A stretch of DNA of 64,000 nucleotides. Source: a virus. The notes beneath the pieces are model-generated. The model saw only the letters and a list, made by a program, of their open reading frames with translations. It was not told the DNA's origin and made no database searches. The DNA lies in the IMG/VR virus record IMGVR_UViG_3300021197_001243, positions 1 to 64,000 of that record, one strand, 5' to 3'. Below are positions 1 through 15,512 of the stretch, one piece after another. Every line of letters starts with the position of its first letter. Positions within the stretch are counted from its first letter, which is position 1. The translations under genes and the position numbers were made by a program.

Positions 1-21
1 AACTAATCATATATTTAAACA

Positions 22-333
22 ATGAAAACAGTAGGAGAATTTTTACAAATGTTACCGGAGCCATATGCTTCGGCTGCAATACTTGCTACTTCTTTAGAGG
101 AAGTGGTAGATAATACGTGTAGTAGTCTTTCTGACGCTATAATCAGCTTCGATTGGAATGAATATGCCATAGATGATGCTGTTAAATCATGGGCAGAGCT
201 ATATTCAATGGCTTTGCTTAGTGAAACTGATACCGACACTATGTGGGATGTACCACAAAAAGATATTATTGAGGCACAATTAGCTGCCTTAGAAGATATG
301 GGATTTGGAATGAATCATATATATCTTAATTGA
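22..333 (+). CDS. Hypothetical acidic protein, 103 aa
   Basis: I do not recognise a family. The product is acidic, without signal peptide or membrane segment. Around residues 36-60 it has the pattern Ala-Ile-x-x-Phe-x-Trp followed by a second Trp (SFDWNEY, then KSWAEL). A similar pattern (RWAFNWEK, then VYWENI) occurs in the 119-residue protein at 1780-2139, so the two could share a small domain; this is inference. The ATG at 22 follows an AT-rich leader without Shine-Dalgarno motif. A 149-base non-coding gap follows, holding a short hairpin (AGGTG/CACCT, 417-432) and a direct repeat. Confidence 0.7.
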   Translation: MKTVGEFLQMLPEPYASAAILATSLEEVVDNTCSSLSDAIISFDWNEYAIDDAVKSWAELYSMALLSETDTDTMWDVPQKDIIEAQLAALEDMGFGMNHIYLN

Positions 334-444
334 ATTAACCAAGAACATCTGGACATCTTTAGAAAAGCCATTGATTTCATAGGCATTCTAAGAACACCCT
401 AAACTGAAAGGTTACTAGGTGTGGTGGCACCTTAAGTCACTAGA

Positions 445-470
445 ATAATCATTTTTTATAATCATTTTTA
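445..470 (+). repeat. Direct repeat ATAATCATTTTT upstream of the 190-aa gene
   Basis: ATAATCATTTTT occurs at 445-456 and again at 458-469, just before the gene starting at 483. The related ATAATCATTTAAA is at 1146-1158, before the gene starting at 1168. It may be an AT-rich leader, an operator or part of a promoter. The sequence does not decide which. Confidence 0.4.
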
Positions 471-482
471 AAACTATTCGTT

Positions 483-1055
483 ATGAATATTGAAGAACAA
501 TTGAGTGCATTACAGACAGGTGAAACATTGCTAGTACAAGCATTGAAAACCAAAAATCCTAATAAAGTTCAGCTTGAATTTGCCGAAAAAGTTAGGAGTA
601 CAACAGGAAATGCTGGATCATTACTAGGTATGTTGAATAAGTCAGATGACAGATTTTCAAGTGGAGCACGTAGAGCGTGGTTAACTGCTGAAATCAATGA
701 TGTAGCTGAATTACTTGACATTAATGTAGGTGATGATGCTGACTGGGGACTAACTTCAACAGGCAAAGATGCTTTACCTATTGGTATTTTGAATCCAATG
801 ATTCACAATATGAGAGCAAGACTGCAAATCAATGAAACTGTTACACCAACTGAATGGCAAGCAGATAACATTGAAACTGCAGCTAAGAGAAAAGGTGCAG
901 AAGGAGAGTTTATTACATTTAAAGGACAACACATCTTTAGTAATACTGATGTAGTTCTTATGAATGCAGATGAGTCTCCAGAGCATACTGTTCTTACTGC
1001 AGACACTGTAACAGTTAAAGCTGCAACTCCAATTACTGATGAAGTAGGTCTGTAG
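483..1055 (+). CDS. Hypothetical protein, 190 aa, single-gene unit before a hairpin
   Basis: Family not recognised. The product is soluble, acidic and without Cys clusters or membrane segments. The N-terminal half (residues 1-100) looks helical and charged. The C-terminal third has Thr/Val-rich strands (TVLTADTVTVKAAT) that suggest a beta domain. The gene stands alone: an AT-rich leader with a direct repeat lies before it and a long hairpin (1101-1140) after it, so it is probably its own transcription unit, perhaps well expressed. It ends in TAG directly followed by another TAG. Reading through would run into the hairpin, so TAG is a stop here. Confidence 0.75.
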   Translation: MNIEEQLSALQTGETLLVQALKTKNPNKVQLEFAEKVRSTTGNAGSLLGMLNKSDDRFSSGARRAWLTAEINDVAELLDINVGDDADWGLTSTGKDALPIGILNPMIHNMRARLQINETVTPTEWQADNIETAAKRKGAEGEFITFKGQHIFSNTDVVLMNADESPEHTVLTADTVTVKAATPITDEVGL

Positions 1056-1100
1056 TAGGAGAGTTATCGTTGTATTTGGTTAAATAATTGTTTTACGCAT

Positions 1101-1140
1101 CTATATATGGAGAGGTTGGCAACGAGCCTCTCCTATATAG
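1101..1140 (+). terminator. Hairpin after the 190-aa gene (terminator or processing site)
   Basis: Left arm 1101-1115 (CTATATATGGAGAGG) pairs with right arm 1127-1140 (CCTCTCCTATATAG) with one bulged T, around an 11-base loop. The stem is long and near perfect. The downstream sequence is AT-rich but lacks a clean T run, so it could also act as an RNA-stabilising or processing hairpin. Confidence 0.6.
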
Positions 1141-1167
1141 TATTTATAATCATTTAAATAGTATAAT

Positions 1168-1365
1168 ATGATAGATCTTAGAAAAAATATTGACACCCCA
1201 TTTTCAGATAAAGAACTCCATGATGCGCATATAGAGACACTGATACGTGAAAATACAGATCCTGATATAATGTATGCACGGCATATTGAAAAGCTCCATA
1301 AAAATTTTGAAGAGTCTCAAATAAAAGAAGCTTTGCTTCAAGATATAACAGATGACTCAGAGTAA
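1168..1365 (+). CDS. Hypothetical small charged protein, 65 aa
   Basis: Family not recognised. It is a short, highly charged, probably helical protein (many Glu, Asp, His and Lys) with no Cys motif or membrane segment. It is the first gene of a tight run: its end overlaps the SET-domain gene by 14 bases. The ATG at 1168 lies 9 bases after an AT-rich leader element (1146-1158) shared with the preceding gene. The overlap and leader support it as real despite its size. Confidence 0.6.
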   Translation: MIDLRKNIDTPFSDKELHDAHIETLIRENTDPDIMYARHIEKLHKNFEESQIKEALLQDITDDSE

Positions 1366-1705
1366 AACAACATATAGGCCATTACCAGAATATTTGACCA
1401 TAGGTCCTTCTAATATAGAGGGCCTTGGTCTTATAGCTATAGACGATATAGTACCTAATGTTCCAATGGGTATTACACATATTCACGACCCAAGATTTGA
1501 AGATAGTTTTGTAAGGACACCTTTAGGTGGGTTTATAAATCATTCCGATGACCCTAATTGTGAAATATTGTATGAAGAAGATAGTAATACTATAGAGAGA
1601 GGTTTACCAGTTATACGAACATTATATAGTATAAAACCTATATCTAAAGGTGAAGAATTAACAGTTAAGTATAAGTTATATGAGTTTAACAAAAAGATGG
1701 GCTGA
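1352..1705 (+). CDS. Minimal SET-domain protein lysine methyltransferase
   Basis: SET enzymes transfer a methyl group from S-adenosylmethionine to lysine side chains of proteins. The core motifs are in order: EGLGLIAIDD (residues 23-32, the GxG motif), GGFINHSDDPNC (59-70, matching FINHSCxPN) and KGEELTVKY (99-107, matching GEELTxDY with the catalytic Tyr at 107). At 117 residues it is a bare SET core without pre-SET or post-SET zinc regions. The fold is clear; the target is unknown and could be a phage or host protein. It lies among small genes upstream of the MazG-like gene and overlaps both neighbours. Confidence 0.85.
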   Translation: MTQSKTTYRPLPEYLTIGPSNIEGLGLIAIDDIVPNVPMGITHIHDPRFEDSFVRTPLGGFINHSDDPNCEILYEEDSNTIERGLPVIRTLYSIKPISKGEELTVKYKLYEFNKKMG

Positions 1706-1868
1706 AAAAATAGGATACTTTGAGAAACAGCAGTATCCTCAAGATGAGGCTGAGTATGAAGAATATTTAAAAAATAAAAATGAAAAAGATAGCACAATTG
1801 ATAGACAAGATTCTAGTGTTCATAATCTTAAAGACAAGGGAAAAGCAGACAGTACAGAGGTCTCTTGA
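1680..1868 (+). CDS. Hypothetical small charged protein, 62 aa (overlapping frame)
   Basis: No recognised family. The product is very polar (Lys, Glu, Asp, Gln and Ser), with the acidic run QDEAEYEEYL in the middle and a tail likely to be disordered. It overlaps the end of the SET gene by 26 bases and the start of the next gene by 89 bases in different frames. Only one of the two overlapping starts may be used; the overlap length is the main reason for doubt. Confidence 0.4.
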   Translation: MSLTKRWAEKIGYFEKQQYPQDEAEYEEYLKNKNEKDSTIDRQDSSVHNLKDKGKADSTEVS

Positions 1869-2139
1869 AAAGTCTTTGATTTATGATGATTATGCAAGAG
1901 CTATGATATATGCAGACAGAGTGACTCTTACACACACTGCGTATTCAAGAGCATCTGCACTTAGATGGGCTTTTAACTGGGAGAAAACTGAAGAAGGTTT
2001 TGTGTACTGGGAGAATATACATGATGCTCTATGTTTACAAGATAGAAGAGACAAGAAACTTGTAAAGCTTCGTAAAACTGTTTTTGTAGTATGTATAACT
2101 CTTTTATGCTTTTCAGTATATAAACTAATTACGTTATGA
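1780..2139 (+). CDS. Hypothetical protein with C-terminal membrane segment, 119 aa
   Basis: Family not recognised. The middle has RWAFNWEKTEEGFVYWENI (about residues 62-80), a Trp/Phe pattern common in small phage proteins of unknown role. The C-terminus is a clear hydrophobic helix (VFVVCITLLCFSVYKLITL, residues 101-119) preceded by a basic stretch (RRDKKLVKLRK), so it probably sits in the inner membrane with its N-terminal part in the cytoplasm. Its last bases overlap the MazG-like gene by 4. The true start could be later than 1780, because the first residues overlap the preceding gene. Confidence 0.6.
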   Translation: MKKIAQLIDKILVFIILKTREKQTVQRSLEKSLIYDDYARAMIYADRVTLTHTAYSRASALRWAFNWEKTEEGFVYWENIHDALCLQDRRDKKLVKLRKTVFVVCITLLCFSVYKLITL

Positions 2140-2444: not shown

Positions 2445-2619
2445 GAAAGAGATAGTGAGTAGGATAAATACAGAGTTTAACAATAAAGTGCGTAAAAGAA
2501 CCATATGGTCACGCATTGAATTGTTTGAATTGCATAGAAATGTGTGTGATATGTATTTAAATCCTATTAAAAGAAAGAATCTTGCTATGGTTAGGGACAA
2601 ATATGATGATGTAAATTAA
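2437..2619 (+). CDS. Hypothetical small basic protein, 60 aa
   Basis: Family not recognised. The product is basic and probably helical (RKRTIWSRIELFELHRNVCD), without membrane segment or Cys cluster. It overlaps the MazG-like gene by 8 bases and shares its last base with the start of the polymerase gene (TAATG), so it is translationally coupled to both. The tight packing is the main support. A role with the polymerase is only a guess from position. Confidence 0.6.
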   Translation: MNEKEIVSRINTEFNNKVRKRTIWSRIELFELHRNVCDMYLNPIKRKNLAMVRDKYDDVN

Positions 2620-4508
2620 TGGATGTACGATTCATAGGACCAGACCGGCAATTCTCTAAGTTTTCTTCTGCCACTATAGAAGAATGTGTAGAGTATTGTG
2701 CAAGTAAACGTATTCTTGGTGTAGATACTGAGACTGAGGGTTTCAGTTTTATTACCAAGAAGATGATCATGTTTCAGATAGGTGATATGGATCGACAGTA
2801 TGTAATTGATACACGCTTTCAATCTATTGAACCACTGAGAGATGTTCTAGAGTCAGAGGGTATAGTTAAGGTGTTTCATAACGCTAAGTTTGACTATAAG
2901 TTTATACGTGCTGTAGGTATATGTACTGAAAATGTATGGGATACTTTTCTTGTAGAGAAAGTACTACACTGTGGTAAAGACAACGTTAGATTTAGTCTTG
3001 CACATGTAGTTAAAAGATATCTTAACAAGACTCTTAGTAAAGAGGTACGTAATCAGTTTGTAGGGTTGACAGGTCAGCCTTTCACTGATAGTCAGGTGTT
3101 ATATGGTGCTAAGGATGTAGTATATCTCCTTGGTATTGTTGAACATCAGAAAGAAAAGCTTAATAAGTATAACCTTAATGAGGTTGCACAGCTTGAGAAT
3201 GATGCTGTTTTAGCATTCTCTGATATAGAGTATGAAGGTCTTAACATCAATCAAAATGAATGGTTAGAGATTAGTGCTGAAGTTGAAATCAGTATGGAGA
3301 AAGTCGAAAAGAATATGGATGAAACCCTCCTTAATGATGATAGATTCCAGGCTTTTGTATCAGACTATGTACAAGGAGAATTGTTTACAACCTTTGACGA
3401 ACTAAGGAAGATAGATGTAAAATGGTCATCCCCTAAACAAGCTTTAGAAGTCTTTCAAGTACTCATACCTGACTTGGAAAAGGTAGATGCTAAGTTCTTG
3501 TATAAACACAGGAAAAAGCATCCTCTTATCCCTGCATATATGAAGTATAAGGAGCAAGCTAAAGTTGTATCATCTTATGGGAAAGCATTCTTAGAGAATG
3601 TACACTCAGACAGTAAGATACATACCAGTTTTAATCAGATTCTTAATACAGGACGGGTAAGTTCTCGTGAACCTAATATGCAGCAAATGCCTGCGTCTAA
3701 CAAGTTCCGTAACTGTATTAAAGCACCTGAAGGATGGGTATTTGTATCGAGTGACTATAGCTCTCAGGAATTGAATGTTATAGCTTATGGTTCACAGGAT
3801 CCTGTATGGCTTGAGGCACTTGAGAAAGGTCAAGACTTACACTCAGTGTGTGCAGCTCTTGTATATGGTGACAAGTGGATTGATGCTGCAGAAGATGAGT
3901 GTGCTTATATGAAAAGTAAGTCTAAGTGTAACTGTTCTGAACACAAGAGTCTTAGGACTAAGGTTAAGACAGTAAACTTTGGTTTAGCTTACGGTATGGG
4001 ACCTAATAAACTTGCAGATACTATAGAGTCATCTCTTGGTGAGGCTAAAGAACTGATAGAACAGTACTTTAAGGTGTTTCCTAACATAGGTAACTTCCTT
4101 ACTAAGCTTGAGAAGTTTGGTGTTAAGTATGGCTATGCTAGAACTTATCCCCCTTACAATAGACGACGATGGTTTTCTGATTGGTTTAAAGGGATTGGTG
4201 CAGAACCATCTCTTAAAGGTATAGCCGGTACTATAGGTAGAGCATCTAAGAATACTCCTATTCAAGGTGCATCAGCTGACATGACTAAGCTTGCTCTTGT
4301 AATTGTAAGAGATTTCATACGTGAGACTAATGTACCTGTTAAAATAGTAATGACAGTGCATGATCAGATTGATACTGTATGCTCTAAAGAATATGCTGAG
4401 GAGTGGAAAGTAAAGATGACTGATCTTATGGAGGAGGCAGCTCTTAAAGTTATACCTAATGGCTTATTAAAAGCAGAAACTAACATCTCAGAATGCTGGG
4501 AGAAATAA
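2619..4508 (+). CDS. polA: Family A DNA polymerase with 3'-5' proofreading domain
   Basis: Replicative DNA polymerase. The exonuclease domain has DTE (D36, E38), HNAKFD (N88, D92) and YGAKD (Y162, D166). The polymerase domain has motif A with DYSSQELN (D379), motif B RTKVKTVNFGLAYG (R446, K450, F454, Y458) and motif C VHDQ (H581, D582, Q583). The 629 residues fit phage PolA without the 5' nuclease domain; a separate 5' nuclease lies at 15589-16440. The oddity is motif C, where HDQ replaces the usual HDE. The metal-binding Asp582 is kept, so the enzyme is expected to be active. Phe454 predicts discrimination against dideoxynucleotides. Confidence 0.97.
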   Translation: MDVRFIGPDRQFSKFSSATIEECVEYCASKRILGVDTETEGFSFITKKMIMFQIGDMDRQYVIDTRFQSIEPLRDVLESEGIVKVFHNAKFDYKFIRAVGICTENVWDTFLVEKVLHCGKDNVRFSLAHVVKRYLNKTLSKEVRNQFVGLTGQPFTDSQVLYGAKDVVYLLGIVEHQKEKLNKYNLNEVAQLENDAVLAFSDIEYEGLNINQNEWLEISAEVEISMEKVEKNMDETLLNDDRFQAFVSDYVQGELFTTFDELRKIDVKWSSPKQALEVFQVLIPDLEKVDAKFLYKHRKKHPLIPAYMKYKEQAKVVSSYGKAFLENVHSDSKIHTSFNQILNTGRVSSREPNMQQMPASNKFRNCIKAPEGWVFVSSDYSSQELNVIAYGSQDPVWLEALEKGQDLHSVCAALVYGDKWIDAAEDECAYMKSKSKCNCSEHKSLRTKVKTVNFGLAYGMGPNKLADTIESSLGEAKELIEQYFKVFPNIGNFLTKLEKFGVKYGYARTYPPYNRRRWFSDWFKGIGAEPSLKGIAGTIGRASKNTPIQGASADMTKLALVIVRDFIRETNVPVKIVMTVHDQIDTVCSKEYAEEWKVKMTDLMEEAALKVIPNGLLKAETNISECWEK

Positions 4509-4518
4509 ACTATTTAAC

Positions 4519-4794
4519 ATGGACTTTGAAACAAAAATAGAAAATGCAAGTGTAAGTATTGATTTTGATTACCAACCTGAAGAAGCTATGGTTATGTACT
4601 ACCCAGATGGTAGTGGTTATCCAGGGTGTCCAGCAAGTGTTGATAACATTAATGTAGTATGGAAAACTCAAAAGTTTAACTCTAAAACACGTAAGCAAGA
4701 AGATGTAGAGGTTGATATTACTGAGCTGCTTAACGAATTAGGACATGACCTTGAAGAACTGTGTTGGGATTATTTAAATAATGGAGACTTTTAA
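4519..4794 (+). CDS. Conserved-looking phage protein, 91 aa, unknown function
   Basis: An acidic small soluble protein of 91 residues. The middle (YYPDGSGYPGCPASVDNINV, about residues 28-47) is Gly/Pro-rich, of a kind I associate with small proteins near phage replication genes, but I know no assigned function. The C-terminal part (ITELLNELGHDLEELCWDYL) is amphipathic and helical. It sits between the polymerase and the SF2 helicase; its stop codon lies one base before the preferred helicase start. Confidence 0.7.
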   Translation: MDFETKIENASVSIDFDYQPEEAMVMYYPDGSGYPGCPASVDNINVVWKTQKFNSKTRKQEDVEVDITELLNELGHDLEELCWDYLNNGDF

Positions 4795-4795
4795 A

Positions 4796-5992
4796 ATGGA
4801 AAAACTGACAGTTAAAGATACTGAGCAGCGTATGGCTTACAGGAACTACATAAATAATAAGTATGTAGGTTCTATTATAGCAGGTACGGGGTTTGGTAAG
4901 ACAAGAGTAGGTTTATTTGCTGTCGTAGAGGCATTGAATAATTCTGATTTAGATGCACTTGTACTTGTACCTTTTGAACACCTTAAAGATAATTTCAAAG
5001 AGGAGATGAGAAAGACAGGGCAAGAGAAGTATATAGATAGAATACAATTCTATTGCTATGCTTCAGTAAAAAAGCTATTAGATTCCCCTGACAAGTATTG
5101 TGTAGTGGTGTGTGATGAGATACATCTTGGTCTCACTGATCCGTGTTTTGAATTTTACAACACAGATAAGTTTGAAAAGATGATGTTTCTTACAGCTACT
5201 CTCCCAGAGGATCCGTTGTACCGGGCAAGACTGCAGAGAGTAGCACCTCCTGTCTATACTATAACTATAGATGAGTGTGTAGCTAAAGGTCTTATAGCTC
5301 CTTACAAAATAAAGTGTGTAGCTTTAGAACTCACAAAGGAAGAGAAAGCACAGTATAAAACTGTTAATGCAAACTTTGGGTATTGGAAAGGTAAGCTAGG
5401 ATTTGATGCTTTTAACATGGCTCAAGCTGTACTTGCAAATAAGAGTAAGTATGGTAATGAAATGATGCAAGCAGCATTAGGATTCTATAGGGCTATTCGT
5501 CAACGTAAAACAATTGTAGATCATGCAAAGAACAAAATTAAACTTGCGCAACTATTTGCTAATAGCACTGATGGGAGGATTCTGGTTTTTGGTGGCGATA
5601 ATGCTTTTACCGATTCTCTTGCTGATTCTCTTGATGGATCTGTTGTCTATCACTCTAAGAAGACAAAGAAGGTCAAAGATGCAGCGTTAAAGGATTTTAA
5701 GAATGGTGATGCTAAGGTGCTATGTAGTACAAAAGCATTGAACCAGGGTCTTGATATCCCTAATGCTCAGATTGGACTTATATGTGGTCTTACAAGTAAG
5801 GCTCTCACTATGATACAGAGGGTGGGTAGACTTGTAAGAATTGACCCTGACAACCCTGAGAAAGTGGGTAGTATAGTTATATTATATGTACAAAATTCAC
5901 AAGAGGAAAAATGGCTGAGAAACTCACTCAAAACAACGGATCCAAGCAATATAGTTTGGACGTCGCAAGAGGAACTACTAGAAAGCGTATAA
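4796..5992 (+). CDS. Superfamily 2 helicase (DEIH type)
   Basis: ATP-dependent DNA or RNA helicase or translocase. Motifs: Walker A AGTGFGKT (residues 29-36), Walker B CDEIH (106-110), motif III TAT (133-135), and motif VI QRVGRLVR (341-348) with its arginine finger. Two RecA-like domains fill the 398 residues, similar to UvsW or RAD25-like phage helicases that act on branched DNA. An in-frame ATG at 4781 would add five residues, but 4796 is preferred because TGGAGA lies 8 bases upstream and the start then follows the previous stop directly. The next gene begins inside its 3' end. Confidence 0.93.
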   Translation: MEKLTVKDTEQRMAYRNYINNKYVGSIIAGTGFGKTRVGLFAVVEALNNSDLDALVLVPFEHLKDNFKEEMRKTGQEKYIDRIQFYCYASVKKLLDSPDKYCVVVCDEIHLGLTDPCFEFYNTDKFEKMMFLTATLPEDPLYRARLQRVAPPVYTITIDECVAKGLIAPYKIKCVALELTKEEKAQYKTVNANFGYWKGKLGFDAFNMAQAVLANKSKYGNEMMQAALGFYRAIRQRKTIVDHAKNKIKLAQLFANSTDGRILVFGGDNAFTDSLADSLDGSVVYHSKKTKKVKDAALKDFKNGDAKVLCSTKALNQGLDIPNAQIGLICGLTSKALTMIQRVGRLVRIDPDNPEKVGSIVILYVQNSQEEKWLRNSLKTTDPSNIVWTSQEELLESV

Positions 5993-6144
5993 GCAACGCT
6001 GAACTCGTACGTATAGGTAAGGATAACTTAACTAAAATTACTCCTATAACTCCAGAGTATAGGTTTGAAGAAGAGAAGAGTGAAGGTGTGGAGATACTAG
6101 AAAAGATTATAATAATGTCAGATAACATATCTGATATTACATAA
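5911..6144 (+). CDS. Hypothetical small protein, 77 aa, overlapping the helicase end
   Basis: No recognised family. It is polar, basic in the first half and acidic in the second. It overlaps the last 82 bases of the helicase gene in another frame. It is kept because its ATG at 5911 has one of the few good Shine-Dalgarno-like sequences in the region (AAGAGGAAAA just before it) and because it continues 152 bases past the helicase stop. A 59-base AT-rich gap follows with no gene. Confidence 0.55.
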   Translation: MAEKLTQNNGSKQYSLDVARGTTRKRISNAELVRIGKDNLTKITPITPEYRFEEEKSEGVEILEKIIIMSDNISDIT

Positions 6145-6203
6145 CAATTTTGTATCTTCATAGCTTCTGACTTCCAAAGTTTAACATTTAAGAATTGTAG
6201 TAT

Positions 6204-6752
6204 ATGAACATTGATATTGAACATATCATAGGGCTAAAGCTGTCCCCTGACGAATATGTTTTCCTTCTACTGCACCACAAAGAAAAGTATAATGACTATG
6301 TGTCTAGAGGTATAAAGTTGCGAATCAATCTTGTAAAACTTCAAGAGATGGATTACATCAAAATACTTGAGGAGAATAAGGTTGCCGTAAGGCAAAAGTT
6401 TATAGACCTTATAGAGACAGATTTTGATAGACAGTTTGCAGAGCTTATAGCTACATATCCTATGAAAGTAGGTAATGCAGGTAAGTATCGCATACTTCAT
6501 GCTTCTAATCCTGATGCTAAAGCTAATTCTAAAGCGAAAGCTAAGTATAGAAGTATACTTAAGAAAGACCCTTTACTTCATAACAAGATTATAAGGTTAC
6601 TTAATGTGCAGCTTACACAGCAACGAGAGAATTTGCAGTATCTAAATGCTCTTGATGTATGGTTAAATCAATCTATGTGGGAAAAGTGGGAAGGTATTGA
6701 CGAAAATACAGAAGACGATAATGACGAAAGAAACACAAGAGTCCTCGATTGA
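6204..6752 (+). CDS. Hypothetical protein, 182 aa, before the replicative helicase
   Basis: Family not recognised. It is a soluble, Lys-rich and probably all-helical protein. Residues about 91-130 (MKVGNAGKYRILHASNPDAK and the basic stretch after it) look like a nucleic-acid or protein contact region, and the C-terminus is strongly acidic (WEKWEGIDENTEDDNDE). It overlaps the DnaB-type helicase gene by 32 bases. Helicase loaders often sit beside phage helicases, so that role is possible, but nothing in the sequence proves it. Confidence 0.7.
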   Translation: MNIDIEHIIGLKLSPDEYVFLLLHHKEKYNDYVSRGIKLRINLVKLQEMDYIKILEENKVAVRQKFIDLIETDFDRQFAELIATYPMKVGNAGKYRILHASNPDAKANSKAKAKYRSILKKDPLLHNKIIRLLNVQLTQQRENLQYLNALDVWLNQSMWEKWEGIDENTEDDNDERNTRVLD

Positions 6753-7686
6753 GGTACTAAAAAAGCTAGGTTTTCAACCTATACGCACAGCTGTAAGGCA
6801 ATCTATAGCTGTCGTAGACAAAGCAAAGAAGGGATTACGAAATATATTTCTTACTAACTGGCCTAGACTGAACAGACACCTATTAGGTGGACTACAGCCA
6901 GGTAAGCTGTACATTATAGCAGGTAGACCAGGTACAGGTAAGTCAGCATTTAGTAATCAGTTAATCTTTGACTTGTTAGACAACGCTGCAAGTTTGAATA
7001 AGAAAATGGTGGTATTCTATTGGTCTTTCGAGATGCCAGGTTATCAGCAGATAATGCGTAGCGCTTCAAAGGATACAGGTAAACAGATGGCAGATCTTTA
7101 CTCAGTTGATTCAAAATTAGCAGAGCAAGACTTTCAGACATTTATAAATAGTGTATCTAAGTATGTGAAGTATCCTGTATACTTTCAGAACAAGCCTAAG
7201 AATGTAGAATTTATAGAGTCAGCTTGTGAGAAGTTTACTATGCTACATCCTGATGTACAAATCCTTAATCTTATTGACCATACCAGACTTGTTCCAGGTA
7301 CGGAGGATATAGAGATGAAGAGACTTAACAGTCTTTCTAAGGCGTGTATGAGGATGCAAGCTAATATGGGTACTATAAACCTGTTATTGTCACAGTTAAA
7401 CAGGAACATAGAGAAAGAGGACAGGGCTAAGAATCAGTTTCAGCCTATGTTATCTGACTTGTTCGGTGGTGACAGTATAGGTCAAGATGCTCATGTAGTT
7501 ATGATGATACAAAGACCTCATGACTTATATGGTATTACATCAAAGTATTGTGGTGAGGATCCTAGAGGATTACTTGCCCTACACCTTGAAAAGAACCGTG
7601 ATGGTATATTGGGTATGATCCCATACGACTTTGACGGTGCAAAGTTTACAATTATAGAACGTAAATCTAAAACTAAATCTAAATAA
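6721..7686 (+). CDS. dnaB: DnaB-type replicative helicase (RecA-fold core)
   Basis: Hexameric 5'-3' helicase that unwinds the fork ahead of the polymerase. Walker A is GRPGTGKS (residues 68-75). Further motifs are FEMPG (about residue 106), LIDHTRL as Walker B, LLLSQLNR with the sensor Gln, and SIGQDAHVVMMIQRP near the C-terminus. With 321 residues it consists of the C-terminal motor domain with a short N-terminal extension and lacks the DnaB N-terminal domain. A TTG at 6697 could add eight residues; the ATG at 6721 is preferred. The primase is encoded separately at 9773. Confidence 0.93.
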   Translation: MTKETQESSIEVLKKLGFQPIRTAVRQSIAVVDKAKKGLRNIFLTNWPRLNRHLLGGLQPGKLYIIAGRPGTGKSAFSNQLIFDLLDNAASLNKKMVVFYWSFEMPGYQQIMRSASKDTGKQMADLYSVDSKLAEQDFQTFINSVSKYVKYPVYFQNKPKNVEFIESACEKFTMLHPDVQILNLIDHTRLVPGTEDIEMKRLNSLSKACMRMQANMGTINLLLSQLNRNIEKEDRAKNQFQPMLSDLFGGDSIGQDAHVVMMIQRPHDLYGITSKYCGEDPRGLLALHLEKNRDGILGMIPYDFDGAKFTIIERKSKTKSK

Positions 7687-7688
7687 TA

Positions 7689-8444
7689 ATGGCAAACACA
7701 AATGCAATAGTATTACCTACTGCACCAGTACCTGGCACTACAAAAAGTCCAGAGAATCTTATAATCTATTCTAAACCTAAGACAGGTAAGACTACAATGC
7801 TTTCTAAACTGAAAGATTGTCTTATCATAGATTTGGAGAAGGGTACAAATAAGATAGATGCAATGAAAGTACAGGCTAATAGCCTAACAGAATTACATCA
7901 TATTATCAAAGCTGTTAAAGCTTCCGACCACAAATACAAATACGTTGCAGTAGATACTGTAACAGAGCTAGAGGCTTGGTGTGAGTGGGATGCTACAGCA
8001 ATGTATATGAAAACCCCTATGGGTAAAAACTTTAATCGTGTCCAAGATCCGAAGACCGGGGAGATGAAAGTACTTCCAAAGAGTCAATGGGACAGTGTAT
8101 TAAGTTTACCCAAGGGCGCAGGATACCTGTATCTGCGTAATAGTTTCAAGAAGTGGATGAATATGCTACTTACTTTAGCTCCTCATGTAATTTTCGTAGC
8201 ACACGTAAAAGATGCTATGGCTGAGAAGAAAGGGAAGGAAGTAGCTGTCAAAGACCTTGATCTTACAGGTAAGTTGAAGATGATAACTGCTCAAAAGGCA
8301 GATGCTATCGGATATGTGTATTGGGAGGGAGAAGAACTAACAATTTCATTTTCTTCTAAAGACGGCATAGAAGCAAACTCTCGCTGCACACATCTAAAAG
8401 ATAGTGTAATTCCATTTGAATGGGATAAGATTTTTATCGATTAA
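7689..8444 (+). CDS. Sak4-like RecA-fold ATPase (AAA_24 type)
   Basis: A P-loop ATPase with Walker A SKPKTGKT (residues 28-35) and Walker B YKYVAVDTVTE (Asp89). The 251-residue RecA-like core without further domains matches the Sak4/AAA_24 family of phage recombination proteins, which work with an SSB in strand annealing. The SSB-like protein is encoded two genes downstream, which supports the call. The region FVAHVKDAMAEKKGKEV near residue 175 could be a DNA-binding loop (inference). It starts two bases after the helicase gene ends. Confidence 0.85.
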   Translation: MANTNAIVLPTAPVPGTTKSPENLIIYSKPKTGKTTMLSKLKDCLIIDLEKGTNKIDAMKVQANSLTELHHIIKAVKASDHKYKYVAVDTVTELEAWCEWDATAMYMKTPMGKNFNRVQDPKTGEMKVLPKSQWDSVLSLPKGAGYLYLRNSFKKWMNMLLTLAPHVIFVAHVKDAMAEKKGKEVAVKDLDLTGKLKMITAQKADAIGYVYWEGEELTISFSSKDGIEANSRCTHLKDSVIPFEWDKIFID

Positions 8445-8471
8445 TAAGTAACCATTTAATTTTTATAAAAC

Positions 8472-8900
8472 ATGAGTATTGAAATGAGGGACTCTCAGAA
8501 CCCTGAAACCACTGAGAACACAGACCTATCTAACTGCACTGTTGTGACAGAAATGACAGTAGATATGATTCTTAATGAACTTGCACAAGGTGTAAATAAG
8601 ACTCAAATGCAAAAGAAGTTCGCTTATCGTGATGAAAATGGAACTGTAAGACCGTTTGAGAAGTGGATGATTGACCAAATGTTCAAAGATCCATCTCTTA
8701 GAGGTAAAAAGCCTGCAAGAAAGAAGGTTCTACCATTTACATTTAAAGGTACAACTACTGCACCTACTACACCTGAGCTTAAGGACGACATTTCTGAAAC
8801 AGAAGGTAGACCTCAGTTTGATCGATCTACTCAGAGTAATGGGTATGTAGAGATTAATGTAGAAGAAAATGATGAAAATAATAACCAATTCAATTACTAA
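8472..8900 (+). CDS. Hypothetical protein between Sak4-like ATPase and SSB, 142 aa
   Basis: No recognised family. Residues 27-75 (VDMILNELAQGVNKTQMQKK and following) look like a small helical, perhaps helix-turn-helix, segment. A basic stretch (RGKKPARKK, about 76-84) follows, then a Thr/Pro-rich linker and an acidic, Asn-rich tail ending in NQFNY. A basic body with an acidic tail ending in an aromatic residue resembles single-strand DNA-binding partners, but this is inference. It is linked to the SSB-like gene by two bases, so the two are probably co-translated. Confidence 0.7.
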   Translation: MSIEMRDSQNPETTENTDLSNCTVVTEMTVDMILNELAQGVNKTQMQKKFAYRDENGTVRPFEKWMIDQMFKDPSLRGKKPARKKVLPFTFKGTTTAPTTPELKDDISETEGRPQFDRSTQSNGYVEINVEENDENNNQFNY

Positions 8901-8902
8901 TA

Positions 8903-9706
8903 ATGGCAATTAAATCAAATAGTTCCGAACAAGAAGTAGCTAGTGGAGGCAAAAAGCTTTACACAGGCATTACTCCTATGAGTGTGGTAGCAGTAAATCC
9001 AACACTGGATGAGCTACACGCTATGGATATCATGTATCAATCAGAACCTAACTACACTGTAGATTTTGGTGATGGTGACGTACAAAAAGTTGTTCTTTGG
9101 CTTAAGAATGAGGATATAACCGTACCTATGGAAATCCTTATCACCCCTGGGCCTTGGAAATCTAAGACAGGTAAGTTTAAGTGGCTTAATAGTCAAGGTC
9201 AAGAGACTTGGGCACAGGAAGATGAGAATGGAGCTATAGATAGCTCTAATCTTATGGACTGGTTCAAGAATCCTGAGAGCTGTTACAAAGTTGCACGAGG
9301 TGCAGATACTCTTACAGATTTTGTAAAAGTATGGGCTAATGTTGCTCCTGGCGATGAAGTTCAACTTGACACTCTTTCTAAGATAGAGAAAGGTGACATG
9401 ACAGAGCTTAAGCAGCTTATCAAAGCACTTGCAAGTAACAAATTACGTGTACTTGTATTTGTACGTGATGGTAAGTATCAAGGAGTTTATACTCGTCACT
9501 TTGGTAGACTTATGCCTCAGAGAAATGATCTGTTCTTGAAAGCTATGAATCAAGATTATGGTCAGGTTAAAGGTGAATACAGTATCGAGTGGGGAGAGCA
9601 CAAACCAGGTGTTCTTACTCCAGATGCAGTGGATACTACGTCTGAGATTTCTGAAGACGCAGATTGGCTTGCTGATCCTGTAGGAGAAGAAGAGTCTCCA
9701 TTTTAA
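8903..9706 (+). CDS. ssb: Single-stranded DNA-binding-like protein
   Basis: Probable phage SSB. The body is a soluble mix of strands and helices with many aromatic and basic residues (GPWKSKTGKFKWLN, VYTRHFGRLMPQR). The C-terminus is a typical SSB tail: an acidic stretch (TSEISEDADWLADPVGEEES) ending in Ser-Pro-Phe, like the DDDIPF tip of bacterial SSB that recruits partners. At 267 residues it is longer than bacterial SSB but normal for phage versions. It is the last gene before a strong terminator, which would suit high expression. The call rests mainly on the tail and on the neighbouring Sak4-like gene. Confidence 0.75.
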   Translation: MAIKSNSSEQEVASGGKKLYTGITPMSVVAVNPTLDELHAMDIMYQSEPNYTVDFGDGDVQKVVLWLKNEDITVPMEILITPGPWKSKTGKFKWLNSQGQETWAQEDENGAIDSSNLMDWFKNPESCYKVARGADTLTDFVKVWANVAPGDEVQLDTLSKIEKGDMTELKQLIKALASNKLRVLVFVRDGKYQGVYTRHFGRLMPQRNDLFLKAMNQDYGQVKGEYSIEWGEHKPGVLTPDAVDTTSEISEDADWLADPVGEEESPF

Positions 9707-9726
9707 GTAGAGTTTAATTTATAATC

Positions 9727-9769
9727 AAGGGGAGGGTACAATAATGTATCTTCCCCTTTTATTATTTTA
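9727..9769 (+). terminator. Rho-independent terminator after ssb
   Basis: Stem arms 9727-9739 (AAGGGGAGGGTAC) and 9746-9758 (GTATCTTCCCCTT) pair over 13 positions with two G-T wobbles around an AATAAT loop, followed by a T-rich tail TTTTATTATTTT. It separates the ssb gene from the primase gene. Confidence 0.85.
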
Positions 9770-9772
9770 CGT

Positions 9773-10789
9773 ATGGGTATAGATGTAAGAAATAGTGATG
9801 TAGTATTATCCGTGGAAACCATTTTAAGTAAAATAACTGATTATGACATATTTAGATTTTACTGTCCACCATTTAAGCAGGTAGGTAAAAAGTTTAGTAG
9901 TGAGCTAAGAGAGGATCCTATACCAAGTGCACATATAACTGTGAAGAACAACAGACTAAGATATATCGATTATGGATATACAGAGCATAGGTTCGACAGC
10001 ATAGGATATGTACAGTACAAGTATAACATACCTTTTAGGAGCGCTTTACTTACAATAGACCGTGATTTTAATTTAGGTCTTGCAGGTAAGAATAATACAG
10101 GTAAAGTAGTAAGTATAGGTAAAACTTATGGGGTGAAAAAGTTCCAAAAGATACCTTGCCTTATACAAATACGTACAAGACAATTTAGTACGTATGATAA
10201 ACTGTATTGGGAAGACTATTGTATTAGTAAAGAGACTCTCCGAGAGTATAATGTAAAACCTATCACTCACTATTGGATAAATGGGATACGCTATCCTGCG
10301 CATAAAGTTGCATATGCTTACTGTGAACATCCTGGAAAGTACAAATTATACTCTCCATTGAAACAGGAAGGTAAATGGTTCGGTAATATGCAAATGAAAC
10401 ATGTACAGGGTGTTACAATGTTACCAATATTTGGTAATTTGTGCCTTTTAGCATCATCATTGAAAGATGTTATGTGTCTTTATGAACTTGGGATTCCAGC
10501 TGTAGCATTACAGAGTGAATCTATGATGCCTCCTAAGAAGCTTATTGCTTTTCTTAAGAGGAAGTTTGATAAAGTAAAGGTGTTGTACGACAATGATTTT
10601 ACAAAAGATAATAACCCAGGACAGACTATGGCTTTATCCATCTGTAAAGAGTATGAACTCGAGAATATCTGTATTCCTACTGAGCTAGGAGCTAAAGATA
10701 TATCAGATGTGATGCAAATTCATGGGCCTGTCAAAGCAATATCCCTAATAAAATGGCATTCAAAAGAAAAGGTAGGAGAAAAGGAGTAA
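9773..10789 (+). CDS. DNA primase, TOPRIM type with altered catalytic Glu
   Basis: A DnaG-related primase. The TOPRIM domain shows LLASSLKDVMCLYELGIPAV (about residues 225-244), followed by the DxD site VLYDND (D273, D275) with downstream Gly. In place of the usual EG at the first TOPRIM motif it has Ser228-Ser229, while Asp232 is kept. The N-terminal 60 residues have the place of a primase zinc domain but lack paired Cys residues. It starts three bases after a terminator, so the site of transcription entry is unclear. The last 37 bases overlap the nuclease gene. Confidence 0.82.
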   Translation: MGIDVRNSDVVLSVETILSKITDYDIFRFYCPPFKQVGKKFSSELREDPIPSAHITVKNNRLRYIDYGYTEHRFDSIGYVQYKYNIPFRSALLTIDRDFNLGLAGKNNTGKVVSIGKTYGVKKFQKIPCLIQIRTRQFSTYDKLYWEDYCISKETLREYNVKPITHYWINGIRYPAHKVAYAYCEHPGKYKLYSPLKQEGKWFGNMQMKHVQGVTMLPIFGNLCLLASSLKDVMCLYELGIPAVALQSESMMPPKKLIAFLKRKFDKVKVLYDNDFTKDNNPGQTMALSICKEYELENICIPTELGAKDISDVMQIHGPVKAISLIKWHSKEKVGEKE

Positions 10790-11564: not shown

Positions 11565-14291
11565 ATGAGTATAAAAACTATTGAACGTCAAGACACTGGA
11601 ACTAAAGGTGTCGAAAAGAAGATTGATGCAGGAGCTGAAAAGCTTGTGTATGACATCTTGCAACAGACTCAATATTCTACTCCTATTAAGTCTACTGTAC
11701 GAGAGTTAACCACAAATGCGTGGGATTCTCAGAGGGAGAAAGAAGTAGCAATTGAGGTCCTCACAGGCAAAGCCAAAGTTGAGGATTATTATATCGAGAG
11801 ACATGGGGAACAGTATGAAGATAGCAATTTTGATGCTTCATATTATGACCTAAAGTATCTTGATACAGAGAACAACACAGTTGAGATTACCTACATACAA
11901 GAAGAAGGTGCAGGATTCTGTGATACATTTAAAGTACAAGATTATGGTGTAGGCCTTGGAGATAAAAGACTCGAAGGTATCCTAAGTCTTGGCTATTCTA
12001 CTAAGCGTAATACTTCAGAGGGCTTTGGTGCTTTCGGTCTGGGTGCAAAGGTTGCATTCTCTACTGGTGTACCTATGTATATGGTGGAAACCGTGCATAA
12101 TGGAAGAAGGTTTAAATGTGCTTGTTATCCATATCGTACTGAGTTTGTAATCTCTAAGTTTTCTAAAGATGGTACTATGAATGATTTTATAACATTCAGT
12201 GATGGTACTAAAGTATACTATGAGAAGACAGACGAAAAGAATAATACTATTGTAAGCTTTGGAGTTAAGAAGCACAATAGATATTCTTATCGTGATGCTG
12301 TTGACCAGCAACTAATCTATATTGATGGTGTAAATTTTACTATCAAAGAAATAGAGGGTGAAAGAGAGTATGAGTATAGGAATAAGTCTACTAAGGCTGA
12401 AGTAGTATACAACTCTGAGTCTCTTATAATCAGTAATGGTACTGTATTCAACAGACCTCACATAGTTATTGTGAAGGATCCTGCAGATGAGTCAGGTATC
12501 AACTATGGTCATGTAGACTTCCGTGAGTTGGAGTTGCAGGATATGTACGGCTCTATAGGTTTTAAATGCCCTATGCGTCAGACGTATCGTGATGAGTCAG
12601 GTAAGGAGATTGTCATACAAGATGGTGTAAGTGTTACTCCGTCTCGTGAGAAAGTTATCTGGAATGACGCTACTAAGGCTTATATCTTATCTGTTATAGA
12701 GAAGGCTACAGAAGAGGCATCTCAACTTGTAGAGGATAAGCTTCAGAACTCAACTGAAATCTTTGAATGGCTTGAGCAGTGTGCTAAAATCTTTCATAGG
12801 AATGACTCTGATGATATTATTCATAGGATGTCTAACATCATTAATAGTGATGACTTATCTCCTGTGTTCTCCGGTGACTCTATGATAAAGTATCTACCTA
12901 TAAGTAATTTCTTTACAGATAGGATTAAGATAGATAAGGTTACTATAGATTATAGAGGTAAGGTAAAAAGAGACCCAATTACAAATTGGAACACTTTTAA
13001 CTTTGATACTATCTATATTAAGGATACTGTGTATAGCCCTGTAAAGGACATGTATATATGCAAAGGACTTGGTAAAGGTAGTTTTACTTCTGTAGTCATA
13101 AAAGAGTGGAATGATCCAGAGTCTAAAGATGAGTCTGTAAAAGAACTTGCAGATAGTTTATCTGATCTTATAGATGAGCAAAAGCTTAAGTATGAGGCAT
13201 TAGAGGAGTTCATATTGAATGATTCTAGGGTGCAATCCTATAGTGAGTTAGAAGTCCCTGCAGAATTTCTTAAGAAAGCTAAAGAGATTGAGGTCACAGA
13301 GGACGCATTGACTCCTGCAGAGAAACGACTTCTTGAGAACAAAGAGGTAGGTTTTACTCTAAGGTATGATCCTGATGCTCATAGAAGTACTTCTCGTAAG
13401 ACATGGACATGGGATAAGGTTGAGCCAAAAGGTATAGATCTTATAACTACAGATGAGGAAGTGTATTATGGTGGTAAAGAAGATGAGGAATCTCTTGTTC
13501 TTGCTGCCGGTATACTATATCCTTCTGCTCCTGTGATTAACAATTATAACTATTGGGGTCAGAACCCTAGAGCTTTGTTTACACTTAGCCCTTCTGTACG
13601 TTATAATATGTGGGCTAAACAGGGGGAGTCTTATGTAGATGATACTAATTATCCTCAATTAATTAAATTAAGTAGTACTGCGATAAAAAGAGTAGAGAAA
13701 GCTAATTCCTCTTTATCTCATATAGAGAACTTTTTCTTCTTTAGGACAACTTATAATACAATTGAGACTCATCCTATGGTTAGACGTGCTTATACTATTC
13801 GTAAAATAGGTACTACTTTCCCTTTCTTTGATGCTTATTTAAGATCTTTTGATAAGATTGATAATAAAATATCAAGTAAGGCTAGAACGTTACGTGCGTA
13901 TCTATGCGAGTATGACAACTTCTTATGGGCAATTAAAACTGCTTTAGACCACCCTATCTGGGATAGAATGGATGAGTTGTATGAGTTTCAGGTGTTTTGT
14001 GCAAACATTGACTCTGAAGATGAGGATAGAGACAAGAAGATAGCTCAAAAGAGCTTTGAAACCTTTGTCTTTACTGATATCGTAGGAGCTAATGTAGCTG
14101 ATCTTGAGATTCTAAGTCTGCATGAAGAGCTTAATTCTTATGCTAAAACGCTTGATCCTTTATTTAGGGATTTACCTACAACTACGTTTATGCAAGATGA
14201 CTCTGCAGAAGAGATTGCAAAGTACATTAAACTGTACAATCGTGATCAATGGGAGTGGGATAACAAATCTTTCCTATCCTCATTACAATAA
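11565..14291 (+). CDS. rIIA: rIIA-like GHKL ATPase
   Basis: A large phage protein with an N-terminal GHKL (Hsp90/gyrase/MutL-type) ATPase domain. The N box is RELTTNAWDS (Glu47, Asn51, Asp54), the G1 box is DYGVG (Asp126 onward) and the G2 box is GFGAFGLGAK (from residue 153). The remaining about 650 residues are mostly charged and helical. Together with the next gene it forms the rIIA/rIIB pair known from T4, where the pair guards against prophage exclusion. A similar defence-related or membrane-associated role here is inference. The 908 residues are longer than the T4 protein (about 725). Confidence 0.88.
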   Translation: MSIKTIERQDTGTKGVEKKIDAGAEKLVYDILQQTQYSTPIKSTVRELTTNAWDSQREKEVAIEVLTGKAKVEDYYIERHGEQYEDSNFDASYYDLKYLDTENNTVEITYIQEEGAGFCDTFKVQDYGVGLGDKRLEGILSLGYSTKRNTSEGFGAFGLGAKVAFSTGVPMYMVETVHNGRRFKCACYPYRTEFVISKFSKDGTMNDFITFSDGTKVYYEKTDEKNNTIVSFGVKKHNRYSYRDAVDQQLIYIDGVNFTIKEIEGEREYEYRNKSTKAEVVYNSESLIISNGTVFNRPHIVIVKDPADESGINYGHVDFRELELQDMYGSIGFKCPMRQTYRDESGKEIVIQDGVSVTPSREKVIWNDATKAYILSVIEKATEEASQLVEDKLQNSTEIFEWLEQCAKIFHRNDSDDIIHRMSNIINSDDLSPVFSGDSMIKYLPISNFFTDRIKIDKVTIDYRGKVKRDPITNWNTFNFDTIYIKDTVYSPVKDMYICKGLGKGSFTSVVIKEWNDPESKDESVKELADSLSDLIDEQKLKYEALEEFILNDSRVQSYSELEVPAEFLKKAKEIEVTEDALTPAEKRLLENKEVGFTLRYDPDAHRSTSRKTWTWDKVEPKGIDLITTDEEVYYGGKEDEESLVLAAGILYPSAPVINNYNYWGQNPRALFTLSPSVRYNMWAKQGESYVDDTNYPQLIKLSSTAIKRVEKANSSLSHIENFFFFRTTYNTIETHPMVRRAYTIRKIGTTFPFFDAYLRSFDKIDNKISSKARTLRAYLCEYDNFLWAIKTALDHPIWDRMDELYEFQVFCANIDSEDEDRDKKIAQKSFETFVFTDIVGANVADLEILSLHEELNSYAKTLDPLFRDLPTTTFMQDDSAEEIAKYIKLYNRDQWEWDNKSFLSSLQ

Positions 14292-14330
14292 AAGTAATTT
14301 ACGTATCTTTAATTTATAAAACTGTTACAA

Positions 14331-15512
14331 ATGATAACAATAAATGTTATAGATGACCAAATAGTTGGATCATGCGGTGAGACTCCGTTTTCAATGCCTT
14401 TCGATAAAGCTATTTATGACACCTTAGAGTCTTTGGCTCATGCAGCAGAGATTGCTGAGGATATAGATGACTACAATAGTATTATTGCAGAGGGTGAAGC
14501 TCTGGTTCTTAGTGCTAAGGAGTTTATAGGGTCTGTTATAGAGACAGAGTGTGAATACCTTAAAGTGGATCCTATGTCTAGAGAGTTCTTTCTACACTAC
14601 AATGGTCAGACATCTGATATTGCTATGCCACAAGCATTGGTAGATAGAATTGTACATTCTCAAGATGTAGGTGTAGATTTTATGCCTCTTGTACGTATGT
14701 GGGTAAGATTCTTACGCAACCCTAACCTTAATAAGGAGGGTAAAGGCGCTGCTTTCGGTGAGAAGTTCTTCAATTTTGTGAATATGAAGTATGTTCATCC
14801 TAAATTGAAGGAAGAATTTATGAAAGACCACGGTCTTACAGAGGAGGCAGCTGAAGAAAGAGCTACTATGTACCAAATGAAGATCACTAAAGAGGGTCTA
14901 CTCAATGGCTACAAGGTTTCTAAAGAGATCGAGCATAAGTATGAGGCAGATGAAGATGGTGAGGTACGTGAAGTTCCTCGTTATGCACGAACTTTCAATC
15001 CTGATACAGGTGAAATTGACTCTGATGGTAAGCCAGAACACGTAGAAGATAGACTATTTGAACCATCTATGATGGGAAAAGGTGGAGATTCTTTTAGTTG
15101 TGATGGTCCTACTGGCTATGATTCTGATGGGCATTTTATTAAAGTAGGTTGCAGACATGCGTTAAGTAGCTGGGATATGGTGAACATTGATGATGATCGT
15201 TCCTGTGTACCTGGTCTTCATGTAGGCGGATTAAAATACATAGCATGGTATGCAGGTGAGATACACAATGTCTTCATCGATCCTATGCATGTAGGTGCTG
15301 TTCCAGATGATGTGGATGGTGCTATTCGTTGCAAGGAGTACTTTGTACACAGTTCTTTGGTTGGTGTTAATGGCTCCATATACCACAGCTCTACTTATGC
15401 AAAAGCTACTGATGAACAATGGAAAGAGATGCTTGAAGAAGCTGTCGTAGTCCATATTGAAGCAGTAGAAAAACAAACGGCAGACTTAAAAAGGCTTCAG
15501 TCTTTAGTGTAA
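14331..15512 (+). CDS. rIIB: rIIB-like protein
   Basis: Partner of the rIIA-like ATPase. The family region is FFLHYNGQTSDIAMPQALVD followed by VDFMPLVRMWVRFLRNP (about residues 84-132), which I recognise from rIIB-like proteins of many phages. The C-terminal two thirds contain a Gly/Cys-containing section (SCDGPTGYDSDGHFIKVGCR), followed by the segment GLHVGGLKYIAWY. The order rIIA then rIIB, with a 39-base AT-rich gap, is as in other phages. A strong terminator follows. Confidence 0.88.
   Translation: MITINVIDDQIVGSCGETPFSMPFDKAIYDTLESLAHAAEIAEDIDDYNSIIAEGEALVLSAKEFIGSVIETECEYLKVDPMSREFFLHYNGQTSDIAMPQALVDRIVHSQDVGVDFMPLVRMWVRFLRNPNLNKEGKGAAFGEKFFNFVNMKYVHPKLKEEFMKDHGLTEEAAEERATMYQMKITKEGLLNGYKVSKEIEHKYEADEDGEVREVPRYARTFNPDTGEIDSDGKPEHVEDRLFEPSMMGKGGDSFSCDGPTGYDSDGHFIKVGCRHALSSWDMVNIDDDRSCVPGLHVGGLKYIAWYAGEIHNVFIDPMHVGAVPDDVDGAIRCKEYFVHSSLVGVNGSIYHSSTYAKATDEQWKEMLEEAVVVHIEAVEKQTADLKRLQSLV

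Follow-up and report, generated by a model that had tools for sequence, protein, structure and literature searches.

SET proteins of viruses and bacteria and the protein of the window

vSET, the A612L protein of chlorovirus PBCV-1, is a very small, virus-encoded H3K27 methyltransferase that consists of the SET core alone, and an excerpt of PMC7019647 describes it as trimethylating H3K27 and as packaged. Bacterial SET proteins occur in Bacteroidota (present in 76 of 148 genomes), with chlamydial NUE and Legionella RomA/LegAS4 as further named examples. The text of a review of bacterial SET proteins (PMC3980110) contains neither ‘phage’ nor ‘virus’, the excerpt of PMC9025141 on phage Ps15 merely names one SET ORF, and we found no study of the compact SET family described below in the open-licence literature. 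Our literature matches also included ‘C2-set domain’ and ‘I-set’ domain (an excerpt of PMC3220722), and the ‘C2-set’ match was discarded as unrelated to the SET domain.

The window, a stretch of 64,000 nucleotides that forms part of an 83,756-base IMG/VR record, encodes a compact SET-domain protein of the phrog_28741 family on its plus strand. The ORF occupies exactly positions 1352–1705, from an ATG start to a TGA stop, and its 117 residues resemble vSET in small size, viral origin and restriction to the SET core, and the bacterial proteins in fold and motifs. Pfam-A returned a single match, SET (PF00856; 34.3 bits against a cut-off of 22.4, E 3.4e-8), confined to residues 60–108; the shortened SET-I/motif II segment leaves the N-terminal half unmatched. 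The PHROGs match to phrog_28741 is longer (residues 7–111, E 3.6e-21). This family, annotated as of unknown function in PHROGs, holds proteins of P-SSM7, P-RSM6 and Kolga that are annotated as hypothetical and align with the window protein, and we read it as SET. NCBIfam profiles gave weak matches only, all far under their cut-offs.

What the SET motifs and SET-I do is established background, and the motifs can be placed on the window protein as follows. The SAM-binding GxG of motif I is G24-L-G26 (1421–1429, plus strand); motif III is N63-H-S-D-D-P-N69 (1538–1558, plus strand), aligned with the MLL SET domains; and Tyr107 (1670–1672, plus strand), taken to be the catalytic tyrosine of motif IV (GEELTVKY), stands opposite the tyrosine of MLL ELTYDY in a profile alignment. 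Directly before NHS lies a subfamily signature identified by alignment, R55-T-P-L-G-G-F61 (1514–1534, plus strand), which doubled as a search pattern and occupies the position at which the SET-I segment of cellular SETs ends. The original prediction of a phage-encoded minimal SET domain is thus borne out by the Pfam score, the motifs and the predicted fold. Its statement that all core motifs are intact in 117 residues needs amending, in that GxG, NHSxxPN and the catalytic tyrosine are present whereas motif II/SET-I is shortened.

An AlphaFold2 model built from 48 sequences reached a mean pLDDT of 85.6 and a pTM of 0.75, and by this prediction the window protein has the SET fold. The best PDB matches in Foldseek were SET domains, namely 4rz0 (E 1.3e-5) and vSET (3kma, E 1.5e-5). 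VIA-align placed MLL3 (Z 11.8, rmsd 3.5, 96 residues) and vSET (Z 11.6, rmsd 2.4, 90 residues) level with each other. In BFVD, 18 matches were found at E ≤0.001, and most of the named ones are SET proteins of giant viruses or uncultured Caudovirales; SET in phages has therefore been annotated before. Together, sequence and model confirm that the ORF encodes an intact SET domain, real and beyond chance. The protein nevertheless differs from vSET, with 23% identity over the aligned part. The virus of vSET infects a eukaryote with histones, whereas the host here is bacterial, and to our knowledge bacteria have no H3.

Extent and conservation of the compact family

A tblastn search of 50,697 phage records gave 14 matching records, of which six cover at least 80% of the query and represent four distinct phages: Pelagibacter phage Kolga, marine virus AG-345-P14, P-SSM7 and P-RSM6. 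Their SET homologues are 40–47% identical to the window protein and have RTPLGGF(I/V)NHSxxPNC and GEELxxKYxxY in common with it. A single-protein search of viral contigs yielded no confirmed relative, and a later profile scan of IMG/VR, with RTPLGGF and NHSxxPNC as patterns, succeeded: at least 600 stretches were found and at least 594 relatives confirmed. The claim that SET proteins are rare in phages therefore does not hold.

Eighty IMG/VR loci were kept and aligned with the window protein and the four named phage proteins (85 rows; the 84 homologues measure 95–115 aa). Y8, G24, G26, G40, H43, N63, N69, E102 and Y107 are kept in all 85 rows, H64 in 84, S65 in 83 and P68 in 72. The catalytic tyrosine and the SAM-binding residues, whose loss had been named as what would overturn the assignment, are accordingly all in place. 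Conservation within R55–C70 is partly selected, as the search patterns pre-selected this stretch; G24, G26, H43, E102 and Y107 lie outside it and are independent evidence. The median dN/dS is 0.17 over 205 pairs, which are not independent of one another, and shows purifying selection on the family.

The distance from GxG to NHS sets the family apart. It is 39 residues in the window protein and 36–41 in 112 of 116 phage-type rows, compared with 56–63 in 31 of 32 cellular SET rows from a Bacteroidota sample (the remaining row was not scored). At some 20 residues shorter than in cellular SETs, this span indicates that the SET-I/motif II segment is largely missing. The four phage-type exceptions are three podovirus proteins (32) and one protein of a 636-kb phage (65). 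In a tree of 109 rows, for which the 84 phage rows had been thinned at 80% identity to 45, a branch with an SH-aLRT of 90 separates the 32 cellular rows from the window protein, and the compact family (73 rows) is supported by an SH-aLRT of 87, although many forks are unresolved with only 112 columns. The tree was built without vSET and without the partial rows L114, L118 and L120; rows from metagenome-assembled genomes (MAGs), some of them chromosomal, carry the label other_phage in it, and L143 is counted as phage-type. On these alignments and profiles, compact SET is a large family, spread over many aquatic phages and present in a few bacterial chromosomes.

The bacterial copies emerged when 84,980 species genomes were scanned for RTPLGGF[IV]N: 28 related loci turned up, each of them in a MAG or a single-cell genome. 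Some are phage contigs, since L099 groups with Kolga in the tree and L109 encodes a portal. Others are chromosomal: seven Porticoccaceae loci (L101–L104, L106, L111 and L118, the last with a SET cut short) have SET downstream of the genes for FabA and a FabB-type ketoacyl synthase, with redoxin, SSB, MFS and UvrA genes beside it, and in L105, L113, L115, L117 and L100 SET adjoins metabolic or transport genes. We had considered a phage-exclusive family and rejected this, as the neighbours on long MAG contigs proved chromosomal. Five of 80 Porticoccaceae genomes match the profile, two of them above 100 bits. Among Bacteroidota, 95 of 296 genomes match it, but 100 bits is exceeded by a single one, the genome taken as centre, and the next reaches 38.7; the matches below 100 bits are consistent with ordinary SET.

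The SET gene in crAss-like and other phages

The TerL and portal of the window's own record match crAss-type families (phrog_6681, E 1.2e-128, and phrog_6547, E 1e-107), and the TerL is up to 41% identical to those of gut crAss-like phages; by these markers the window phage is crAss-like. The two genes are adjacent (L090:7395–9371 and 5106–7319), with no SET between them. The best 40 of the 157 phage records that match this TerL include none of the 14 SET-matching records (tblastn), and megablast of window positions 1–25000 matched no named phage. An HU/IHF-like protein (PF00216, E 2.8e-7) is encoded upstream of TerL in the same genome (L090:9833–10078; record 73833–74078). Elsewhere in the window, RIIA-like and RIIB-like genes stand in tandem (11565–15512), and two giant ORFs of 1639 and 4324 aa occupy 20328–38221 on the minus strand; the larger matches phrog_32390, annotated as of unknown function, in its N-terminal part only, and the smaller has no PHROG match.

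The window SET gene lies among replication-side genes; the coordinates given here are all on the plus strand. A 65-aa ORF (1168–1365) overlaps the start of SET by 14 bases, and the two are likely to be translationally coupled; a homologue in the relative L174 holds the same place with a 4-base overlap. A 62-aa ORF (1680–1868) overlaps the end of SET by 26 bases, and its start resembles, by eye, a 109-aa ORF that L174 has in this position. Small ORFs are followed by a MazG-type pyrophosphohydrolase (2136–2444; Pfam and PHROGs) and a family A DNA polymerase (2619–4508; Pfam and PHROGs). In two further loci, L093 and L035, SET has the same type of MazG as its immediate neighbour, with proteins 63–67% identical to the window MazG; the link, seen in three loci with such similar MazG proteins, could reflect one co-moving cassette.

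A SET-like gene is nearby in two of 80 relatives of the polymerase, L174 and L235. The gene near the polymerase in L235 (4647–5051) is divergent, with NND instead of NHS, and may encode an inactive or altered product. Window positions 4794–10074 and L174 share 98.5% identity, yet the SET protein that L174 carries at the corresponding position is only 51% identical to that of the window, with flanks at about 70–74% in DNA and a gene order much alike. When window positions 1–1900 are compared with L174, identity falls sharply, from 98.5% to about 70%, at that end of the window in which SET lies. This drop looks like recombination or a hypervariable module and, since both alleles are intact and divergent in near-identical phages, it suggests that a region that keeps a SET has been exchanged by recombination.

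In other phages the gene is often found elsewhere. TerL, TerS or portal lies within four genes of SET in 42 of 83 loci, a count that leaves out L018 and L044 from the full 85. Among marine crAss-like relatives, the gene begins 1–2 bases after the TerL stop, ahead of portal, in all 11 checked. SET also lies closer to a PF03237 terminase, encoded on 11 of the 36 records searched, than under random placement (Fisher p 0.002 over 11 contigs; p 0.018 with one contig per arrangement). A wider count drew on 74 of 80 TerL loci, of which 69 extend far enough past TerL: SET follows TerL in 26 of these and is absent there in 43, which rules out a SET fixed between TerL and portal. A TerL tree of 68 rows, among them that of the window phage, requires four changes for this trait; all SET carriers fall in one fork, where they make up 26 of 31 rows, and the clade to which the window phage belongs (11 rows) has no SET after TerL. 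The crAss TerL-SET-portal order is probably one insertion with later losses, and SET is an accessory gene in crAss-like phages.

Among the named phages, P-RSM6 has SET next to gp25-like and baseplate wedge genes, AG-345-P14 has the same two ORF clusters after SET, and in P-SSM7 the gene is close to nrdB. In podoviruses, a SET-like domain (phrog_34170-like) has a short GxG-NHS segment and a similar RT..G stretch before NHS, but differs from the window protein in forming the C-terminal part of longer proteins of 253–291 aa in the head module, in the portal/terminase region. These proteins (L006:3527–4288, L007:3422–4297 and L009:2437–3267) have the shortest GxG-NHS segment, that of 32 residues given above. 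Their N-terminal part reads like a candidate cupin. One of them is annotated as similar to a putative tail fiber protein.

Candidate substrates of the window protein

The original prediction named host chromatin-like proteins, the ribosome or a phage protein as possible substrates. The motifs, the predicted fold and the selection acting on the family support an active SAM-dependent methyltransferase. SET enzymes usually act on protein lysine, and judged on sequence and model the window protein is very probably an active protein-lysine methyltransferase. Our best explanation, put forward tentatively and at rather less than even probability, is an accessory protein-lysine methyltransferase of the compact SET subfamily that targets a host protein. 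We postulate that the gene, grouped with replication genes, would be expressed early, and that its SAM-dependent product, a catalytic core lacking most of the SET-I insert, would place methyl groups on a lysine of a host protein during takeover. A cellular target is favoured by the replication-side position, the MazG neighbours, the accessory distribution and the chromosomal copies. The distribution (26 of 69 TerL loci and two of 80 polymerase loci) is as expected of host-directed genes, the exchange suggested by the comparison with L174 speaks in the same direction, and the chromosomal copies count for a non-virion target because no virion is involved there. Against a host protein, SET-I normally forms part of the peptide groove, part of which is removed by its shortening, and the TerL, TerS and portal neighbourhood in relatives points to a virion or packaging target. 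Given an active enzyme, we put the chance of a host target a little under one half, and lean slightly towards a host protein rather than a virion protein as the substrate.

That SET methylates a particle or packaging protein, such as portal, terminase, capsid or baseplate, and so tunes assembly or protects the virion, is possible and only a little less likely than a host target. It would account for the tight TerL-SET-portal spacing, the frequent packaging-gene neighbours, the proximity to terminase, the baseplate setting in P-RSM6 with its counterpart in AG-345-P14, and the podovirus proteins that end in SET. The related phages with no SET after TerL, among them the window's whole clade, speak against it, as do the place of the window gene among replication genes, the nrdB neighbour in P-SSM7 and the virion-free chromosomal copies; the crAss arrangement, too, probably goes back to one insertion with later losses. 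The packaging neighbourhood and the shortened SET-I could also suit a non-enzymatic protein, a SAM-binding or beta-clip adaptor or a structural piece, all the more as SET and the phage head-decoration protein gpD are placed in a common beta-clip fold class (an excerpt of PMC5344890). We consider this improbable, since a structural role would not need Tyr107, GxG, Asn63, Asn69 and Glu102, which are kept throughout the alignment. Equally improbable is the methylation of HU/IHF-like DNA-binding proteins of phage or host, in the way that NUE and the packaged vSET act on histones. An HU-like protein is encoded by the window's own genome and by the relative L033, and the L033 HU-like cluster lies within six genes of SET in 14 loci, but in the gene clusters compared, only crAss-like loci have HU-like genes near SET, with no such link in other lineages.

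A host protein thus remains our preferred target for the window enzyme. For the subfamily as a whole, we would suggest, again with some reserve and at less than an even chance, that the compact, SET-I-poor proteins form a distinct subfamily that serves aquatic phages and a few marine bacteria as a common tool, methylating a prokaryote protein that may be a host regulator, an HU-like protein or a virion protein. If the window protein is active, it would be among the smallest natural SET enzymes and would show what the SET core does without SET-I, and lysine methylation by tailed phages would be directly testable in the existing isolates P-SSM7, P-RSM6 and Kolga. Should the reading of the compact subfamily be true, protein-lysine methylation would be a recurrent and so far undescribed layer of phage-host biology.
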